64,000 nt of DNA from Myxococcus xanthus (GTDB lineage: Bacteria; Myxococcota; Myxococcia; Myxococcales; Myxococcaceae): assembly GCF_900106535.1 (NCBI RefSeq), contig NZ_FNOH01000005.1, positions 1-64,000 of the forward strand, read 5' to 3'. The notes beneath the pieces were generated by a model. That model worked only from the letters and a program-made list of their open reading frames with translations, was not told where the DNA came from and ran no database searches. Positions within the stretch are counted from its first letter, which is position 1; every line of letters starts with the position of its first letter. A program made the translations under genes and the position numbers. This document shows, piece after piece, positions 13,481-54,514 of this stretch.

Positions 13481-15118
<1,638 letters not shown>

Positions 15119-42939: not shown

Positions 42940-43767
42940 CTAGAGCCCGTGACCGCAGTGCTTGCAGAAATGCGCGTCCAGGTCATGCCCCTGCTGGCCA
43001 CAGGCGGGGCACGCCCGGTTGTCCACCGCGTGCCGCGTGGCGGCGGCCAGCTCCACGGAGACGATGCCCGTGGGCACGGCGATGATGCCGTAGCCCATCA
43101 CCATCAGAATGGAGGCGATGAACTGCCCAGGTGCCGTCTTGGGGGTGATGTCGCCAAAGCCGACCGTCGTCACGGTGACGATGGCCCAGTACATGGCGCG
43201 CGGGATGCTGTCGAAGCCGTTCTCCTGGCCCTCCACCACGTACATCAGCGCGCCCATGATGACGACGATGGTCAGCACGGTGCCCAGGAAGACGGTGATT
43301 TTCGGGCGGCTGGCGCGCAGCGCGGTGAGCAGCACCTCCGCCTGGCCGAGCAGGTGCGACAGCTTGAGCACGCGGAAGACGCGCAGCAGCCGCAGCACTC
43401 GAATCGCCAGCAGGGACTGTGCCCCGGGAATCAGAACGCTCAGGAAGGTGGGCAGGATCGCCAGCAAATCCACCAGCCCGAAGAAGCTGCGGGCGTAACG
43501 CAGCGGCTTGCTGACGGAGAAGAGCCGGAGCAGGTACTCCAGGGTGAACAGGCCCGTGAAGAACCATTCGACGCCGAGCAGCAGGCTCCCGTACTGGGCC
43601 CGCACCGAGGCGACGCTCTCCAGCATCACCGCGATGATGCTGAAGAGGATGGCCCACAGGAGGCCGACGTCGAATGCCCTGCCCGCGGGCGTCTCCGCCT
43701 CGAAGATGATTTCGTGCAACCGACCGCGGAGGCCCTCGGTGGGGCCCTGCTCTGAGGCGTTGGACAC
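42940..43767 (-). CDS. Voltage-gated ion channel (K+-channel type) with C-terminal zinc ribbon
   Basis: About 275 aa. Six membrane segments: an S4-like helix with spaced arginines (AIRVLRLLRVFRVLKLSHLL) and a pore loop TVTTVGFGDITPK containing the K+-selectivity TVGFGD. After S6, the cytosolic tail ends with a ribbon of two CxxCG pairs (ACPACGQ and FCKHCGHG). I use the GTG at 43765-43767; an earlier Met at 43857 would overlap actP. It follows actP by 43 bp and appears to be the last gene of the acetate operon. Confidence 0.88.
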   Translation of the reverse strand: MSNASEQGPTEGLRGRLHEIIFEAETPAGRAFDVGLLWAILFSIIAVMLESVASVRAQYGSLLLGVEWFFTGLFTLEYLLRLFSVSKPLRYARSFFGLVDLLAILPTFLSVLIPGAQSLLAIRVLRLLRVFRVLKLSHLLGQAEVLLTALRASRPKITVFLGTVLTIVVIMGALMYVVEGQENGFDSIPRAMYWAIVTVTTVGFGDITPKTAPGQFIASILMVMGYGIIAVPTGIVSVELAAATRHAVDNRACPACGQQGHDLDAHFCKHCGHGL

Positions 43768-43810
43768 GGGCCCAGTGTAGGCGACCCGTGCCCCAGGGGA
43801 ATGTCCGTCC

Positions 43811-45445
43811 TCAGGCCTTGGCCTCGCTGCCCGTGGCGGCGGGGCGGGACGGCTCATCCGCGGGCTTCGATGCCACGGTGGCCACCGCGGGGGCCGGCTG
43901 GGGCACCCCCACGTGCATCCGGTGCTTCACTTCGGCGAAGCGGGCGGCGGACTCGTGCTCGGGGAAGAGCAGCGACACCGCCGCGCCCACGATGAAGGCC
44001 AGGGGAATGGTGATGACGCCCGGGTTGCGCAGGGGGAACAGCGCGGACGTGTTGCCCAGGAGGTCCACCTGCACCGTGGGGGACAGGAAGATGAAGAGCA
44101 CCGAGCTGATGGCGCCCGTCAGCATGCTGGCCACCGCGCCATTCGTGGTGAACTTCTTCCAGGCCATGGACAGGAGCAGCGCCGGGAAGTTGGCGCTCGC
44201 CGCGATGGCGAAGGCCAGACCCACCATGAAGGCCACGTTCTGCCCCTTGAAGGCCACGCCCAGGATGATGGCCAGGACGCCCAGGAAGAGGCTGGCCAGC
44301 CGGGCCACCTTGAGCTGCTCCGCCTCGGGGGCCTGCCCCTTGCGCACCACGCTGGACCACAAGTCATGGGACAGCGCCGCCGCGCCGGACAGCGTCAGGC
44401 CGGCCACCACCGCCAGAATCGTGGCGAAGGCGACGGCGGAGATGAAGCCCAGGAAGCCCGTGCCACCCACGACTTCGGCGAGCATGGGCGCCGCCATGTT
44501 GCCGCCCTTGTCCACGCCGGTAATCGCCTGACGGCCCACCAGCACGGACGCGCCGAAGCCCAGGATGAACGTCACCAGGTAGAAGTAGCCGATGAGCCCC
44601 GTGGCGTAGAAGACGCTGCTGCGCGCCGCCTTCGCGTCCGGCACCGTGTAGAAGCGCATCAGGATGTGCGGCAGGCCCGCGGTGCCGAACATCAGCGCCA
44701 CGCCCAGGGAGATGGCCTCCAGCGGGTTGTTCACCAGCTTCCCGGGTGCCAGCACCTCCGCGCCGTATTGGGTGGCGGCCTCGTTGAAGAGCCGCAGTGG
44801 GCTGAAGCCGAACTTGGACAGCACCATGCCCGCGAGCCCCGTGGCGCCCGCCAGCAGCAGCACCGCCTTGACGATCTGCACCCACGTGGTGGCAATCATC
44901 CCGCCGAAGAGGACGTAGAGAATCATCACCGCGCCCACGATGACGACCGCCGCCTCATAGGACAGGCCGAACAGCAGGTGGATGAGGTTGCCGGCGCCCA
45001 CCATCTGCGCAATCAGGTAGAAGCTGACCACGGTGAGCGTGCCCACCGCCGCGGACAGGCGCACCGGCGTCTGCTTCAGCCGGTAGGCCACCACGTCCGC
45101 GAAGGTGTACTTGCCCAGGTTGCGCAGGGGCTCGGCGATGAGGAACGTCACGACCGGCCAACCCACCAGCCAGCCAACGGAGTAGATGAGCCCGTCGAAG
45201 CCGGACGTGGCCACCAGGCCCGCGATGCCCAGGAAGCTGGCGGCGCTCATGTAGTCGCCCGCGAGCGCGAAGCCGTTCTGCGCCGCGCTCACGCCGCCGC
45301 CCGCGGCGAAGAACTCCGAGGTCGTCTTCGTCTTGCGCGCCGCCCAGTACGTAATCGCCAGGGTGACGCCGACGAAGAGGAGGAAGAACAGGATGGCCGT
45401 CGCGTTCGGCTGGCCGAGCTGCGTCGTCGTTTCTGCGGGGTTCAT
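43811..45445 (-). CDS. actP: Cation/acetate symporter
   Basis: About 544 aa with roughly 13 membrane helices; sodium/solute symporter (SSS) family. ActP-like features: [31 protein letters not shown] in the first helices, and a full run of SSS core helices after. It imports acetate or short-chain acids with Na+ or H+. The ATG at 45443-45445 has a GAGG site and lies 7 bp after the DUF485 stop. Gene order acs-DUF485-actP matches the E. coli acs-yjcH-actP operon, which supports the assignment strongly. Confidence 0.95.
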
Positions 45446-45452
45446 GCCTGCC

Positions 45453-45737
45453 TCACTTCCCACCGCGGAGTTGGTGCAGGGCGCGGTCGTACTTCCCGTT
45501 CGCCCACAGCATGTAGATGCCCGTCAGCGCCCAGGCCGCGACGATGACCAGCGCGCCCAGCAGGATGCCAATGGACAGGCCGGGGACGAGCTGCTGCCCC
45601 ATGAGCGGCTTGTCGAACGCCACCAGCAGGATGAAGCCCAGGTACGCCACCAGCGTCGTCACGGTGAGCACGCCGGCCACGCGCCAGCGCGCCGCCGCGA
45701 GTGCTTCCAGCGCTTCCTCATTCGGATTCGTGGACAT
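45453..45737 (-). CDS. DUF485 small membrane protein (YjcH-like)
   Basis: 94 aa with two membrane helices ([20 protein letters not shown] and [20 protein letters not shown]) and short charged ends. This is the DUF485 family, whose members are nearly always encoded next to actP and may assist its assembly. GGAG lies upstream of the ATG. It is 16 bp after the acs stop. Confidence 0.9.
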
Positions 45738-45753
45738 GGGAATTCTCCTCCGG

Positions 45754-47718
45754 TCAGCGCTTCGCCTGTGGGGGTGTGGCCTTCGCGAGGAGTTCGTCGA
45801 GCACCGACGGGTCCGCCAGGGTGCTGGCGTCACCCAGGTTCTCCACCTCGCCCGAGGCAATCTTGCGGAGCATGCGGCGCAGAATCTTCCCGGAGCGCGT
45901 CTTCGGCAGGCCGTTGACCAGCACCACCCGGTCCGGCGTGGCGATGGGGCCAATGACATGCCGAACCTGCTCCTTGAGCGCGCCCACCATCTGCTCGGAG
46001 GCGGACTCCTGCCAGTCCGGCTTCACCGTGACGAACGCGCATACGCCCGTGCCCTTGAGGTCGTGCGGGAAGCCCACCACCGCGGCCTCGGCGACGGCCT
46101 CATGGGCCACCAGCGCGCTCTCCACCTCGGCGGTGCCCAGGCGGTGCCCGGAGACGTTGAGCACGTCGTCCACGCGGCCGGTAATCCAGTAGTACCCATC
46201 CTCGTCGCGGCGGCACCCGTCACCGGTGAAGTACAGGTTGGGGAAGCGCGCGTAGTACGTCTCCTTGAAGCGCTGGTGGTGGCCATACAGCGTGCGAGCC
46301 TGTCCCGGCCACGAGCGCGCCAGACACAGGTTGCCGCTGACGCCGTTGCCTTCGATGACGCGGCCCTCGTCGTCCACCAGCACCGGCTCCACGCCGAAGA
46401 AGGGCAGGGTGGCGGAGCCCGGCTTGGTGGGCGTGGCCCCCGGCAGCGGGGCAATCAGGATGCCGCCCGTCTCCGTCTGCCACCACGTGTCCACCACCGG
46501 GCAGCGGCCTTCGCCCACGACGTCGTGGTACCAGCGCCACACCTCCGGGTTGATGGGCTCGCCCACGCTGCCCAGGAGGCGCAGCGACTGGCGCGAGGAC
46601 TTCTTCACCCACGCGTCACCCTCCTTGATGAGCGAGCGCAGCGCGGTGGGCGCGGTGTAGAGGATGGTGGCCTTGAGGTCGTCCACCACGCGCCACAGCC
46701 GCCCTGCGTCCGGGAAGGTGGGCGTGGACTCGAACATCACCGTGGTGGTGCCGTTCATCAGCGGCCCGTAGAGGATGTAGCTGTGTCCGGTGACCCAGCC
46801 CAGGTCCGCCGCACAGAAGTAGACGTCCTCCGGCTGGATGTCGAAGACGTAGCGGAACGTGGTGGCCGCGTAGACGAGATAGCCGCCGGTGGTGTGCAGC
46901 ACGCCCTTGGGCTTCCCCGTGGAGCCGGAGGTGTAGAGGATGAAGAGCGGATCCTCGGAGTCCATCCACTCCGCGGGACAGACGCCGCGGTGCTTCGCCA
47001 TCTCCGCGTCCAGCCAGTAGTCGCGGCCGGCGAGCATGGGCACTTCCTTGCCCGTGCGGCGCACCACGAGGATGGACTCCACCAGGGACAGGCCCTCCAC
47101 GGCCTCGTCCGCGATGGCCTTGGTGGGCACGAACTTCGGGCCGCGCGGCCCTTCGTTGGCGGTGATGAGCACCTTGGCGCCGGAGTCGAGAATCCGCTCG
47201 CGCAGGGCCTCCGATGAGAAGCCGGCGAACACCACGGAGTGCACCGCGCCGATGCGCGCGCACGCGAGCATGGTGTAGGCCAGCTCCGGCACCATGGGCA
47301 GGTAGATACAGACGCGGTCGCCCTTGCGCACGCCGTGCGCCTTCAGCACGTTGGCCACGCGGCCCACGTGGTGCTGGAGGTCGCGGTAGGTGATGGATTC
47401 GTACTCGCCCGGCTCGTTCTTCGCCCAGATGATGGCGACCTTGCCGGGGCGCTCCGTGGCGTGCCGGTCGATGCAGTTGTAGGCCGCGTTGAGCTTGCCG
47501 CCGCCGAACCAGGAGAAGTCCACCTGTTCGGCGTCCAGGTCCATGATGGCGTCTGGCTTGTGGAACCAGGTGAGCTGTTCAGCCATCTCACTCCAGAAGG
47601 CCTCGGGCTGCTGGATGCTGCGCTGGTAGAGGCGCTGGTAGTCCTCCAGGCTCTTCACGTGGGCTTTGCGGCTGAAGGCGTCCTTCGTGGGAATGAGCGC
47701 TTCCTGCGTCTGGGCCAT
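45754..47718 (-). CDS. acs: Acetate-CoA ligase (acetyl-CoA synthetase, AMP-forming)
   Basis: 654 aa. It activates acetate with ATP and CoA. Landmarks are [15 protein letters not shown] (AMP-binding P-loop), [34 protein letters not shown], and the C-terminal [11 protein letters not shown], whose Lys is the site of reversible acetylation in other bacteria. Length equals the E. coli enzyme. AAGGAA lies upstream of the ATG. It is second in the operon behind the porin gene (28 bp) and ahead of DUF485/actP, so uptake and activation of acetate are expressed together. Confidence 0.97.
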
Positions 47719-47746
47719 CGTTGGCTTCCTTGGGAGTGGAGGAGGG

Positions 47747-48853
47747 TTAGTAGAAGAGCTGGAGCTGGCTCGTGCCCGTCACGGCGGCACGTGCCTGGGA
47801 GATGTCGCCCGTCCACGCGACGGCGACCTCTGTCCGGAGGTTGAGCGTGTGCTTCTGGAACCAGATGTTGAAGCCGGGCTTGAGCGCGAGCAGGTCCTGG
47901 CCGTCCACGCGCGCCTTGAAGTACTCGCCGGAGATGAGCGGCTGGAACTTGCCGAAGCGCCAGCCCGTCTCCGCGTAGAGCCCTGTGCCGCTCTGCGGGT
48001 TGTCCAAGCCCTGGCGGTAGTGGAAGAGGGTGGCGTTGAAGACGAACTCCTGGTCGTTCGCCAGGGGCACGTCGAGGAACACGTCCGCGGCCGTGCCCAA
48101 CGAATCATGGAGACCGGATTCCGTGGACACCGCCTTGGGCTGGTAGTCGGCGCCGATGCCCACCGACAAGCGCGGCTCGGAGGCGAAGTAGATGCCTTGG
48201 AAGAAGAGGTCCTCCTCGCGCGTGAAGAAGTTCCAGCGCGCCATCGCCGTGATGCGAGGCAAATCGTCCGGGTTGAGCACGGTGCCATCCGGGGTCGTCT
48301 TGCCGTTGACGCCATTGAAGATGGCGGCCCGGAATCCCAAGGGGCCGGCGAAGCCGCGGACCTGCACGCCGATGTCCCGCCACACCTTGCCCACGCCAGG
48401 TGCCCAGCGGACCAGGCTGGAGTGGTAGTCCACGGCCTGCAACGCGACGGCGCCCTGGAGGACATGGCGCGTCAGCGGTGGCAGCAGCATGCCCACGTCA
48501 ATCCAGACTTTCTCCGCCACCTCGTAGGAGATGAACGCGTCCTGGATGAAGAAGGCGACGTTCCAGTCGCCGTTCTTGCCGAAGTTGGGCTGGTCCGTCT
48601 CGGCGAAGAACGACAGCTTCTGGGTGATGTGGCCGAAGACGAGCAGGCGCGTGCGCCGCAGGAACATGTCGGAGCTGGGGCCGCCGGACGGCGCGCCTTC
48701 GTCGACAATCTGGAGCTGCGGCTGCAGGAGGATGGCGACGTTGAGGTAGGACTCCTCGCTGATGGGAATCTTGAATGCGCTCGACGGAGTGGCTGACAGC
48801 AGGACCGCGAGCGCGGCCATGAACGACAGCATGCGTGCGGGGGCAGTGCGCAT
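47747..48853 (-). CDS. Outer-membrane porin, phosphate-selective porin (OprO/P)-like
   Basis: About 368 aa. Signal peptide [26 protein letters not shown], then alternating amphipathic beta-strands and a C-terminal aromatic ending (QLQLFY), hallmarks of an outer-membrane barrel. The motif [26 protein letters not shown] resembles the porin O/P family. As first gene of the acetate operon it probably lets small organic anions across the outer membrane (inference). The sigma-54 promoter predicts a 2-base leader for this ATG. An ATG at 48832 is the alternative but gives a signal peptide with no positive charge. Neither has a clear ribosome site. Confidence 0.82.
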
Positions 48854-48865
48854 GCCCCAGCACAG

Positions 48866-48881
48866 AGCAACGTGTCTGCCA
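48866..48881 (-). promoter_or_regulatory. Sigma-54 (-24/-12) promoter of the porin-acs-actP operon
   Basis: Read leftward, TGGCA-N6-TTGCT has GG (48880-48879) and GC (48868-48867) separated by exactly 10 bases, and fits the consensus TGGCACG-N4-TTGCW at 10 of 12 defined positions. The predicted transcription start is near 48855. It is the best sigma-54 element I found in the window, and it sits downstream of phased palindromes and near an NtrC-type activator gene. Confidence 0.75.
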
Positions 48882-48933
48882 ACGCGCCGCGCTCGGAGAT
48901 TCAAGACGTTGCAGGTTGGCTCGGCGCGTCAGG

Positions 48934-48997
48934 ACGTTACCGAAGGTGACGTTCGCGTTACCGCGGTAACGCTTCATGCGCTGCGTCGTAACGCTTC
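48934..48997. promoter_or_regulatory. Phased palindrome array, probable enhancer (UAS) for a sigma-54 activator
   Basis: Site 1 (48934-48952) is ACGTTACC-GAA-GGTGACGT, one mismatch. Site 2 (48955-48972) is the perfect 18-bp palindrome GCGTTACCGCGGTAACGC. CGTTACC begins at 48935 and 48956; GTAACGCTTC begins at 48967 and 48988. Both pairs are exactly 21 bp apart, two helical turns. The array is about 80-140 bp upstream of the predicted start, the usual place for an NtrC-family enhancer. Confidence 0.72.
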
Positions 48998-49007
48998 GCG
49001 CGCGGCG

Positions 49008-49835
49008 TCAGGTCTGCTTGGAGTTCGAGTGGTCGCCTGTCTTTCCTAGCAGGTATCCACCATGGCTGATGGCCAGCAGGGCGAGCATGCCTTGCGACAG
49101 GGCGGGCATCGCGTGGGTCGTCCCGCGCGCCACCGACATGGCCACGTCCATGAAGTAGCCCACCGCTGCGATGAGCGTGAAATAGAACATCTGCACCTTG
49201 GCCAGGTCGATGTGCGCGGTGTTGCCCACCTCGTCTCCCTGGAACATGTCCGCCATGCGCGCGTCCGTCATGTTCGCGTTGGCGTAGAGCACGCCCTGGC
49301 GGTGAGCGTCGATGTCCGCGGGGGCCTCCGCGAGTTGGACGGAGGTGTTCTGCACCAGCTTCTCGTCCGGGCTGCGCGCACGCTTGCCGCCCAGCACCAG
49401 CGGTGTGCCCAGAAGGGACGTGGTGGAGATGCCCATGGCAATCCAGAGCTCCTGGGGGATGTCGACCCCCACTGCGTTGGGCGCGCCCGACTTCACGCGG
49501 GAGAGCGTCATCGTCAGGTAGCCCGCCATCACCACCACGGTCCACACGAGCGCCTGGAATCGGGAGAGGCTCATCAGGTTGCGCTCACTGATGAGCAGCG
49601 CCAGCGGCACGCCCGCGATGGCCTTTCCCAACACCAGCAGGAAGCCGGTGAGCATGGCGGCCGTTCCGAGCAGGTTCCATCCCGGCGGCAGGAACCATGT
49701 CGTGGTGATGATGGCCATGGGCATGACCGTGGTGAGCACCACCATCCGCCCGTACTCCGCGCGAGGAACGACGCCAACGATTTCCCCCGCGCGATTGCCA
49801 GCCCCACTGCCAATCACAGGCACGCTGTCTGCCAT
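49008..49835 (-). CDS. Multi-pass membrane protein, function unknown
   Basis: 275 aa with about five or six membrane segments (VVLTTVMPMAIITTTWFL, LLGTAAMLTGFLLVLGKAI, ALVWTVVVMAGYLTMTL, MFYFTLIAAVGYFMDVAM, then MLALLAISHGGYLL) and a soluble loop of about 70 residues between the fourth and fifth. No family recognised. It lies between the response-regulator gene and the enhancer array, on the same strand, but its stop is upstream of the operon promoter, so it is a separate unit. Confidence 0.75.
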   Translation of the reverse strand: MADSVPVIGSGAGNRAGEIVGVVPRAEYGRMVVLTTVMPMAIITTTWFLPPGWNLLGTAAMLTGFLLVLGKAIAGVPLALLISERNLMSLSRFQALVWTVVVMAGYLTMTLSRVKSGAPNAVGVDIPQELWIAMGISTTSLLGTPLVLGGKRARSPDEKLVQNTSVQLAEAPADIDAHRQGVLYANANMTDARMADMFQGDEVGNTAHIDLAKVQMFYFTLIAAVGYFMDVAMSVARGTTHAMPALSQGMLALLAISHGGYLLGKTGDHSNSKQT

Positions 49836-49971
49836 GAGCTCCCCCCAACGGTGTGTTGGCGGAAATCCTAGCGATGGGGCGCGGCAGGCGTTCCGCTGTG
49901 CCGGGGCGGCGCCCCTGGTGGACGGGCTTCCAGCACTGGAGGGCAGTGGACAGACGCGAGGGCGCCGTGCC

Positions 49972-51350
<1,379 letters not shown>

Positions 51351-51354
<4 letters not shown>

Positions 51355-54323
51355 GCCGGGGCCTCCCGCTCGGGGTTCACGCTGGCTTCCATCCGGCGTG
51401 GCTCCGGAAGGCTCACCACGATGCTAGTCCCTCCCCCCTGCCGCTTGTCCACCTGCATCGTTCCGCCGTGCTCTCGGACGATGCCCGCCGCGAGCGCCAG
51501 GCCCAGGCCCGTTCCCTCGCCGGGGCCCTTCGTGGTGAAGAAGGGCTCGAACACGCGCTGCGCCAGCTCGGTGGGAATCCCGTGTCCCCGGTCCATGACG
51601 CGCAGGCGCACCGCGCTACCGTCGATGTCCGCTTCCAGCTCCACCACGCCGTGCTCGGGTGAGGCGTCCATCGCGTTGGTCAGCAGGTTGACGAGCACCT
51701 GCTCCAGCCGCTGCGCGTCGCCTTGCACCTCCAGGCCCTCTGGACAGCGATGCTCGAAGCTCACCCCATGCTGCTTGCGTGCCAGCCGCGCCAGTTGCAC
51801 GGCTTCGCTCAGCAGTGGCGCCACGGCGACGCGCGTGAAGGGCCGCGCCTGTCCGCCCACCGTGCCTTCGTGGCTGAAGCCCACCAGCGTCCGGACGATG
51901 GCGTCGATGCGCCGGCATTGCTGGAGGATGAGCCCCGCGCGCTCCTGCACCGCCGCCGGGTCCTCCAACTCGTACTTGAGGTTCTGCGTCAGGCTGGCGA
52001 TGGCCGTCAGCGGGTTGCCAATCTCATGGGCCACGCCCGCGGCCACGCGCCCCAGTGAGGCCAGCCGGTCCTGATGCGCCATGCGCGCGTCCACGGCCTT
52101 TCGTGCCGTGAAGTCCTCCACCAGGAGGGCCATGCCCTCGGACGAGCCCGTGCCCTGCTCCGCGGGAGAGAGCCGCGAGCGGTGCAGCCGGAGAATGCGC
52201 TCGACGCCCGCCACGGTGACACGTGTCTCCGTGTCTCCGTCCACACCGCTGGCGAAACCGGACAGCAGCGGGCCCCAGGGGGCGGGCAGGGCATCCAGGG
52301 GATGGCCACGCACGGTGTCCACCGGCACGCCGGAGAGCTGCTCGAGCGTCGCGTTCCAGATGACGACCTCACCATCCGGCCCCACGGCGCAGACGCCCAC
52401 CGGGAGGTCCTCCAGGATGCGGCGCAGGTAGCGGCGCACGGCCTCCAGCGCGGGCACCGGGCCTTGCAGTCCCCGCGCGTCGCGAAGGCGCTCCTCGACG
52501 AAGCGGAGTTGTTCGGCCAGGGCGGTGCGCGCGCCGGGCTCCAGCCGCAGCGCCTCCTCCACCGTTATGCGCGCGAGCACGGGGCCCAGCAGTCCCGACA
52601 GGTTTCGCTCCACGCCGTCGCGCAGGCGGCGCAGCTCGGAGGGCCGGCGCTCGTCCTGCGGCAGCGACAGGGAATTCAGCGCCCGGTCCACCTCCGCCGT
52701 CGCGGCCTCCTCACCCAGCAGCGGGGCCAGCTTGCGGCGGAACTCGTCGGGCGAGCCCGCCACCACGCCGCCCGCGGCGGGCGCGGCCTCCTCGCGTGTG
52801 CAGGCCCGCGCGGCCTCTGCTTCCTCGGCGGACTGGCGCGTCGCCAGCGACACGCCGATGAAGGCCAGCCCGTTGAGCGTGAGCGAGGCGAAGGTGGCGA
52901 AGCCCCAGGGCTCACTGTCGGAGAACCCGAGCAGCGCCGCCATGCGATGCGTCCACGCGACGACGCCCGGCGACGCCCACAGGGGCACCACCAGTGTCAG
53001 GAGCCAGAGGCTGGCGCCCACCGCCAGGCCCGTCAGCAGCCCGGCGCGCGTGCCCCGCTTCCAGAACAGCAGCCCCAGCACGCCCGGGATGAACTGCGCC
53101 ACCGCGACGAAGGACACCAGCCCCAGGTCCACCAGTCCCGTGCCGCGGATGTTCAGCAGCCAGTGGAAGCCGTAGCCGGCCAGGATGATGATGCCGATGA
53201 ACAGCCGGCGCGCCCACAGCAGCCAGCCGTATAGATGCGGCTGCCCGCGTGCGTAGCCCAGCGGCAGCACCAGGTGCGTGAGGCACATGGGCGCCAGGGC
53301 CAGTGTGGTGACGATGACCATGGCGCTGGCCGCGGAGACACCGCCCAGGAAGGCACCCAGCGCCAGCCACGTGGCGCCGCGTGACGCGGGCACCGCCAGC
53401 ACGTGGAAGTCCGCGGGCCAGGGCAGTCCCAGCGCCTCGCCGCTCCAGAGCACCACGGGGACGACCAGGTTCATCACCAGCAACAGCAGCGGGAAGGCCC
53501 AGGTGGCGGTGGCCAGTCCCTCACGCTCCGGGGCCTCGGTGAAGGCCACGTGGTAGCTGCGAGGCGTGAGGAACGCGGCCGCGCAAGAGAGCACCAGCAG
53601 CGGTGCCCAAGAGGCGTCTCGCGCCGGGCGCTGAAGTGCGTCGATGGCCTCTGGATGCGCGTCGACCCAGGCCAACAGCCCGTCCACGCCGCCGAACACG
53701 TTGGAGACCGCCCAGACACCCACGGCCACCAGTGCGACGAGCTTCACCGCGGACTCGAAGGCGATGGCCAGCATCAGGCCTTCGTGCCGCTCGCGCGGAG
53801 TGAGGTGCCGTGCGCCGAAGAGGACGGAGAAGACGGTGAGGACCGCGCAGAAGCCCAGGCCCACCAGCGTGGGAGACGCGGAGGGACTGAGCACGCGCGC
53901 GGACTCCACGACGGCCCGCACCTGGAGCGCCAGATAGGGGAGGCTGCCCGCCAGCAGGAACAGTGTCACCGCCGTACCGGTGGATTGCCCCGGGTAGCGG
54001 AAGGCCAGCACGTCCGCTAGCGACGTGAGCTGCAACTCGCGGGACAGGCGCAGCAGCGGGCGCCACAGCACGGGTATCAGCAGGCACGCCAGGGTGACGC
54101 CCAGGTAGATGCCCAGGTAGCGGAAGCCATGCCGGGCCGCGTAGCCCACGCTGCCGAAGTAGGACCACGATGTGGCGTACACGCCCAGGGCCAGCGCGTA
54201 GACGAGCGGATGCTGGGTGATGCGCGCGGGGATGGCGCCTCGCTCCGCCGCGTAGGCCACCAGGAAGAGCACCAGCAGGTAGGCGACGGACGCGGCGACG
54301 AGCGAACCGAGCTCGAGCGTCAT
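51351..54323 (-). CDS. Sensor histidine kinase with sodium/solute symporter sensor domain (CrbS-like)
   Basis: About 990 aa. Residues 1-480 carry about 13 membrane helices of the SSS transporter fold (YATSWSYFGSVGYAARHGFRYLG, then LTSLADVLAFRYPGQSTG). A linker and a PAS-like segment (DLPVGVCAVGPDGEVVIWN) follow. The HisKA box has His766 in AAGVAHEIGNPLTAI, and a HATPase domain has NLLTNAMDAS and GTGLGLALAAGI. CrbS of Vibrio and Pseudomonas has this design and controls acs. The ATG at 54321-54323 overlaps the stop of a 64-aa gene. Whether the SSS part still transports is unknown. Confidence 0.93.
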
Positions 54324-54514
54324 GGGCCACGACTCCGGTGCGCCGCCCAGCCGCCCAGGAGGATGACGCCCAGCCACACCGCGAAGGGCAGGTACCCCGG
54401 CGCGCCCTCCGCCAGCCACAGTCGGCGCAGGGGAGAGCCGAAGAGGAGCACCGCGACGGCGAAGACGAGCAGCGACGGCATCACGGGGGCGTCGGGCTCG
54501 GTAGGGCGCTTCAT
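54320..54514 (-). CDS. 64-aa membrane protein coupled to the sensor kinase
   Basis: Two predicted membrane helices (PSLLVFAVAVLLFGSPL and YLPFAVWLGVILLGGWAA) and short basic ends. Its TGA overlaps the ATG of the sensor kinase (ATGA), so it is the first gene of the three-gene regulatory unit. Small partners are common next to SSS transporters; here it could be a subunit of the symporter-like sensor. The longer open frame reaching 55276 has no membrane-protein character upstream of this Met. Confidence 0.75.
   Translation of the reverse strand: MKRPTEPDAPVMPSLLVFAVAVLLFGSPLRRLWLAEGAPGYLPFAVWLGVILLGGWAAHRSRGP

Follow-up and report, generated by a model that had tools for sequence, protein, structure and literature searches.

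A CbrA/CbrB-like pair and a predicted sigma-54 enhancer-promoter unit before an acetate operon of Myxococcus xanthus

Sigma-54 promoters require an enhancer-bound AAA+ activator, usually located about 80-150 bp upstream. Sigma-54 dependence is known for an acs-type gene, acoE of Cupriavidus (acetyl-CoA synthetase), which has a -24/-12 promoter; it is controlled by the acetoin regulator AcoR and not by a transceptor two-component system. Among systems with an SLC5-STAC kinase, CrbS/CrbR of Vibrio and Pseudomonas activates acs and actP; according to the available part of the source, CrbR is LuxR-type and its ACTU repeat adjoins an RpoD promoter (PMC5715377). RpuS/RpuR of Sinorhizobium controls a carboxylate symporter operon, which in the accessible text involves the pyruvate symporter mctP and an imperfect direct repeat (PMC9100948). 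CbrA/CbrB is called unique to the Pseudomonas family in a review, the accessible part of which gives the CbrB consensus site as TGTTAC-N12-14-GTAACA-N15-19-GTAACA, i.e., F1-N12-14-R1-N15-19-R2 (PMC8871633).

The locus reported here resembles CbrA/CbrB-crcZ in several respects. The gene order, with an SLC5-STAC-PAS kinase adjoining an NtrC-type regulator, is the same; GTTACC/GTAAC half-sites are found with a -24/-12 promoter at a similar enhancer-promoter distance, and the enhancer directly follows the regulator gene in many genomes. The target is different: instead of crcZ, the unit precedes a porin-acs-DUF485-actP operon. The difference from CrbS/CrbR is that the regulator is NtrC-type (receiver and sigma-54 AAA+ domain) rather than LuxR-type, and the promoter is of the -24/-12 kind. 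Considering the DNA and its relatives together, we believe it very probable that the CbrA/CbrB-like pair drives porin-acs-DUF485-actP via a sigma-54 enhancer-promoter at 48866-48993 of the window (the whole 64-kb stretch that was analysed). The features are listed in Table 1; numbers beginning with L and G are our handles for loci and genomes.

Table 1. Features of the predicted control region and adjacent genes, in the order of minus-strand transcription (window positions)
Feature	Position	Strand	Remarks
Kinase, CbrA-like SLC5-STAC-PAS-histidine kinase	51351..54323	minus	PDB 10ED match; PAS, HisKA, HATPase
CbrB-like NtrC-type response regulator	49972..51354	minus	receiver, sigma-54 AAA+ domain; C-terminal HTH by eye
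275-aa membrane protein	49008-49835	minus	between regulator gene and array
Upstream half-site CGTTACGACGC	48983..48993	minus	GTTAC in 22/25 loci
Dyad 1, perfect 18-bp palindrome GCGTTACCGCGGTAACGC	48955..48972	minus	contains CGTTACCGCGGTAACG at 48971-48956
Dyad 2 CGTCACCTTCGGTAACG	48935..48951	minus	15/17 columns invariant in 25 loci
Second block CTGACGC...GCCAACCTGCAACGTCTTGAAT	48899..48932	minus	between enhancer and promoter
IHF-like site ATTCAAGACGTTG	48899-48911	plus	1-2 mismatches to IHF consensus
Putative sigma-54 -24/-12 promoter TGGCAGACACGTTGCT	48881-48866	minus	GG-N10-GC, TGGC/TTGC core
Predicted transcription start	48854 (about +/-2)	minus	27 nt downstream of T of TGGC
Outer-membrane porin, first operon gene	47747..48853	minus	start ATG 48853
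acs, acetate-CoA ligase	45754..47718	minus	TIGR02188 957.7 bits, cut-off 725
DUF485 protein	45453..45959	minus	PF04341 at ORF residues 82-165
ActP-like cation/acetate symporter	43811..45463	minus	PF00474 E=8.5e-108

On the minus strand the order is kinase, regulator, membrane protein, control region, porin, acs, DUF485 and ActP-like symporter. The kinase ORF has 1022 aa (51351-54419), and the start common to its relatives is at 54323. The membrane protein has no Pfam or NCBIfam match; by eye, the array in other same-genus loci is preceded by the end of the regulator gene or by that of another gene. The porin has no Pfam match and scores 52 bits against NF040900 (porin ExtI), under the cut-off of 150. 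The DUF485 start is uncertain, the initial part of the ORF overlapping acs, and the symporter scores 714 bits against NF006903, slightly under the cut-off of 750. We presume that porin, acs, DUF485 and actP are co-transcribed as one operon. A K+ channel ORF (42940-43857, minus strand) overlaps the end of actP and may be an operon member; a K+ channel relative lies about 2 kb away in L265 and L268.

The pair itself is similar to CbrA/CbrB at the protein level. Kinase residues 32-627 match PDB 10ED (CbrXA SLC5-STAC) with E=1.7e-146 and, together with the PAS and kinase domains, give the CbrA architecture SLC5-STAC-PAS-HK. Ten gammaproteobacterial relatives of the kinase, among the matches listed, are 38-44% identical over the best segment, and each is followed by a regulator 52-58% identical to that of the window; the scan for relatives covers at least 80 loci and speaks of presence only. 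A tree built from 40 regulators separates the Myxococcota proteins, together with the 10 CbrB-type ones, from 14 chosen paralogues with support 100/100, the Myxococcota rows not forming one supported clade. Within this sample of 40, the window regulator groups with CbrB. Further SLC5-STAC kinases are found at 36-42% identity (family f5).

The first-pass annotation had described a palindrome array with a period of exactly 21 bp in two motifs. The period is correct for CGTTACC but not for the second motif, since GTAACGCTTC occurs at 48966 and 48988, i.e., 22 bp apart. CGTTACCG repeats at 48935 and 48956, 21 bp apart; the dyad centres in the window are 20.5 bp apart, and the overall phasing is 20.5-22 bp. 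The perfect 18-bp palindrome claimed there is indeed present (dyad 1), and the dyads, which lie about 89 and 110 bp upstream of the predicted start, fall in the 80-150 bp enhancer range that had been proposed for the array. On the question of chance, GCGTTACCGCGGTAACGC with at most 3 mismatches matches once in the window against 0.03 expected, and CGTTACC-N1-4-GGTAACG has a single place in the 9.26-Mb genome, the present locus. The combined unit, defined as GTYAC-N4-5-GTRAC followed by GG-N10-GC (score of at least 9) 85-93 bp from the dyad start, is found once in the window and in none of 300 first-order Markov simulations. Compared with the consensus in the accessible part of PMC8871633, the half-sites and GTAACG-N15-GTAACG agree, whereas the F1-R1 spacing is not observed and the dyads here are compact (16-17 bp). 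The resemblance of the half-sites to these published ones is one of the reasons for which the CbrB-like regulator is proposed as the activator.

The search for further targets in the same genome was negative. CGTTACCNNGGTAACG with at most 2 mismatches has 15 places, below the reversed-pattern control (25), and GTTACSNNNSGTAAC with at most 1 mismatch has 4 places, dyad 2 among them, against 32 in the control. Two of the 17 other places have a -24/-12-like site (score 9) at a distance of 40-160 bp: L067 at 141 bp and L073 at 87 bp with a poor -12. The remaining 15 have none in this range, L062, the sole 1-mismatch place of the CGTTACCNNGGTAACG search, being one of them. A regulon beyond the porin-acs operon is unsupported, considering that the matches are below the controls and 15/17 places are without a promoter; weak sites may exist.

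The -24/-12 element with GG-N10-GC spacing named in the first-pass annotation is present; it lies on the minus strand. Its sequence TGGCAGACACGTTGCT is the sole exact match to TGGCAN6TTGCW in the window; with at most 1 mismatch there are 3 matches against 5.3 expected, i.e., no enrichment. The element scores 10 of 12 positions against the consensus, and it is not decisive by itself, since the window holds 5 sites scoring at least 10 and 42 scoring at least 9. It could be proposed on this ground that the -24/-12 match is incidental and that a repressor, or else an activator of sigma-70 transcription, uses the dyads, all the more as the CTGACGC..AASGTC block could hold weak -35/-10 hexamers (by eye). 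A sigma-70 promoter in this block was set aside, the hexamers being weak by eye. The conservation of the element speaks against such a proposal: TGGC and TTGCT are invariant in 25/25 same-genus loci while the sequence on either side drifts, with no invariant column in the 7 bp separating them or in the 17 bp upstream. The distance from the start of GTTAC/GTCAC to TGG is also conserved, being 87-91 bp in all 15 loci selected from Myxococcota regions and earlier loci of several genera, and exactly 89 bp in 9 of the 15. We consider the incidental match very improbable and retain the sigma-54 promoter; the genome encodes rpoN (TIGR02395, 416 bits, cut-off 277). In M. xanthus, loss of sigma-54 by deletion is reported to be lethal (PMC12316311).

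The predicted start is placed by the boundary of the Rfam CrcZ model, which is a model boundary and not a mapped start. In L143 and L144 this model begins 27 nt past the T of TGG; therefore, the start in the window would be at 48854. The aligned porin ATG is 13-15 nt after the GC of the -12 element in 25/25 loci, which is consistent with a sigma-54 start, and the predicted mRNA leader is therefore as short as about 1-3 nt. L010 and L018 have an additional earlier ATG; their aligned ATG is at 14 nt.

Between the dyads and the promoter there is a second conserved block, in which CTGACGC is invariant in 7/7 columns and the 22-bp part in 15/22 columns (25 loci). It includes an IHF-like site 17 bp before TGG, and the top match to the IHF consensus falls in this block in 32/34 loci. 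At a single locus the evidence for IHF is weak, because as many as 15% of simulated sequences score equally to the loci with 2 mismatches. The genome encodes IHF alpha above the cut-off and an IHF-beta-like protein slightly under the cut-off.

Conservation in relatives had been named beforehand as one test of this prediction. A porin homologue is present in 25/27 same-genus genomes, the window genome counted, and both elements and their spacing are found at all 25 porin loci (L002-L026). Dyad 1 is 75 bp from TGG in 23 loci and 74 bp in 2, and the dyad centres are 20.5 bp apart in 25/25. Dyad 1 is invariant in 12/16 columns (48956-48971); the upstream half-site is lacking in L019-L021, in which the end of the regulator gene occupies that place. 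The mean identity between a near group of 7 loci and a far group of 18 loci is 1.00 for CTGACGC, TGGC and TTGCT, 0.91 for dyad 1, 0.92 for dyad 2, 0.87 for the half-site and 0.89 for the 22-bp block. Lower values are obtained for the spacer preceding TGGC (0.53), for the 7 bp that separate TGGC from TTGCT (0.45) and for the third codon positions of the porin (0.66).

Such unusual conservation might also mean that the stretch encodes a protein or a small RNA and does not act as DNA control elements. We regard this explanation as scarcely credible here: L007 and L008 have a 1-bp deletion inside the stretch, the upstream gene varies between relatives (by eye), and a scan of 47500-51500 against Rfam gave no match at E<=1, CrcZ included; CrcZ was found in both L143 and L144 when these were scanned. 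Control elements in DNA are the reading we keep.

The CGTTACSNVGGTAAC pattern occurs in 27/61 genomes, in 25 of them beside the porin. The other two cases were attributed to chance, there being no relatives of the window genes nearby: in G035 the dyad is inside an open reading frame, and in G046 it is in an ORF gap (by eye). Two same-genus genomes, G015 and G021, are without kinase, regulator, porin and dyad, i.e., the whole module is absent; in both, the acs homologue closest to that of the window has no more than 54-55% identity.

The next question is whether the dyads belong to the adjacent regulator. Another NtrC-type activator might bind them, the promoter and enhancer being real, considering that the genome has 17 regulator matches at E<=1e-100 (self included; 27 scored candidates) and that in G002 the kinase-regulator pair is about 40 kb from the operon. 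Nevertheless, within the genus the dyad, the regulator and the kinase are present or absent together. The kinase is found at E<=1e-150 in 29/61 genomes, and regulator matches of at least 66% identity are found in the same 29. Moreover, the dyads use the published CbrB half-site and the regulator groups with CbrB-type proteins. A unit is also observed at an acs unlinked to the pair in a pair-bearing genome, G033: besides the unit before DUF485-actP near the regulator (2.72 Mb), there is one before a second acs at 10.38 Mb of the same 13.2-Mb contig. We consider a different activator improbable. The link to the NtrC-type regulator suggested in the first-pass annotation is supported by the joint presence and absence and by the unlinked acs of G033.

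In the acs survey, which covered 13 acs-homologue loci (L118 had no upstream sequence), the whole unit was found at 2, in G033 and G029. In G029 it precedes the second acs, and the linked acs has a degenerate form; one linked locus of G029 in the survey has a -24/-12 element and a half-site. Seven acs-homologue loci from 6 genomes that lack the pair showed no unit, and neither did 2 further acs homologues of G032, a genome with the pair. Most of these negative homologues are 42-54% identical, and only those of G027 and G034, at 71-72%, are comparable to the positives. G032 has a dyad with a -24/-12-like site (by eye), and G056 has a dyad with no GG at -24.

Beyond the genus, the SLC5-STAC part matches in 70/195 genomes of the phylum at E<=1e-60. 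Twenty Myxococcota regions were fetched; L270, L273, L274 and L280 are without the regulator and thus uninformative, so that 16 were counted. In 12 of the 16 the unit follows the regulator gene or precedes the porin, although in L277, one of the 12, it is behind and not before an acs-like gene. In L279 the unit precedes a symporter-like gene, while by eye L271 is degenerate and L281 has about 180 bp between its -24/-12-like site and the dyad; in L272 the regulator is present and no unit was seen nearby. Two more weak unit hits in L277 and L278 look incidental. The claim of an enhancer-promoter unit readable from the DNA is supported to the extent that the predicted unit is kept in the genus and recurs in other genera.

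A similar layout is observed in gammaproteobacteria. In two Pseudomonadaceae (L143, L144) half-sites and a -24/-12 element precede crcZ directly after cbrB. Units of GTTACC/GTAAC half-sites with a -24/-12 element stand behind the regulator gene at 6/10 gammaproteobacterial loci, 7 units in all (L143, L144, L146 with two units, L147, L148, L149). Each has a GTAAC whose start lies 78-82 bp ahead of TGG, the window value being 80 bp; this GTAAC was picked after seeing the spacing, and L148 has another at 65 bp. L141, L142, L145 and L150 have no such unit behind the regulator gene. In L144 (Pseudomonas fildesensis) the Rfam match "P36 sRNA" at 14448-14508 covers the half-sites before crcZ; therefore, this family may reflect CbrB enhancer DNA and not an RNA.

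Direct control of acs by CbrB as the ancestral state was also considered. An acs gene is located within 10 kb downstream of the pair in 5/8 loci with full flanks (L141, L144, L145, L146, L148; L142 and L150, with short flanks, are omitted), at about 5-8 kb in these five. The region within 600 bp upstream of 4 gammaproteobacterial acs genes (L141 excluded) has no GTTAC/GTAAC and no -24/-12 element scoring at least 9, so ancestral direct control is unsupported.

A preprint names 11 CbrA residues for histidine contact in simulations or coupling. Of these, the window kinase retains Y51, W55, Y75, K196 and F406, and 6/11 differ (S53T, A56S, C74I, F248S, S251A, H257R). Comparison of 15 Myxococcota rows with 8 readable gammaproteobacterial rows (besides L141) gives S/T against A at position 56, S (A in L278) against F at 248, and R against H at 257. 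The contrast is carried by these three positions, because the gammaproteobacterial rows are themselves variable at 53, 74 and 251. Since the named histidine-contact residues differ, including H257, which is R here, the ligand may differ as well; arginine at position 257 would suit a carboxylate. L141, a gammaproteobacterial MAG, has a CbrA-type kinase with Myxococcota-type pocket residues, and acs homologues flank its kinase-regulator pair on both sides.

The proposed mechanism is as follows. The CbrA-like transceptor kinase, on a cue that may be acetate or another short carboxylate, would phosphorylate the adjacent CbrB-like regulator. Regulator dimers would bind the GTTACC/GGTAAC dyads, oligomerise and contact the sigma-54 polymerase at the -24/-12 element, possibly assisted by DNA bending where the IHF-like block is located, at about -45 to -57. 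ATP hydrolysis would then open the promoter, and transcription would begin about 1 nt before the porin ATG.

A bolder version may be proposed tentatively, as one more apt to prove wrong than right: that in Myxococcota the specificity of a CbrA-type transceptor has shifted from histidine to a short carboxylate (perhaps acetate) through pocket changes, H257R among them, and that this transceptor directly controls an acetate porin-ligase-symporter operon of its own via a CbrB-type sigma-54 enhancer, with the half-site and the promoter distance common with Pseudomonas.

The sigma-54 enhancer-promoter architecture is ordinary in itself. What seems new is a CbrA/CbrB-like pair in another phylum and a CbrB-like enhancer on an acetate operon; an earlier description of such a pair with acetate genes was not found in the open-access literature, judged by titles and abstract beginnings.

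Pairs similar to CbrA/CbrB occur in further gammaproteobacterial families as well, and in another phylum with a similar enhancer and a different, compact target. If the bolder version is true, the kinase and regulator together with the layout of their enhancer would represent an ancient module, connected to crcZ in one lineage and to acetate uptake in another. Since the genome has the strict dyad at this operon alone, a single promoter could serve to study signal, binding and output, and the substitutions in the pocket allow the evolution of ligand choice in a transceptor to be tested directly. For the myxobacteria, the prediction is that acetate scavenging would be under sigma-54 control.
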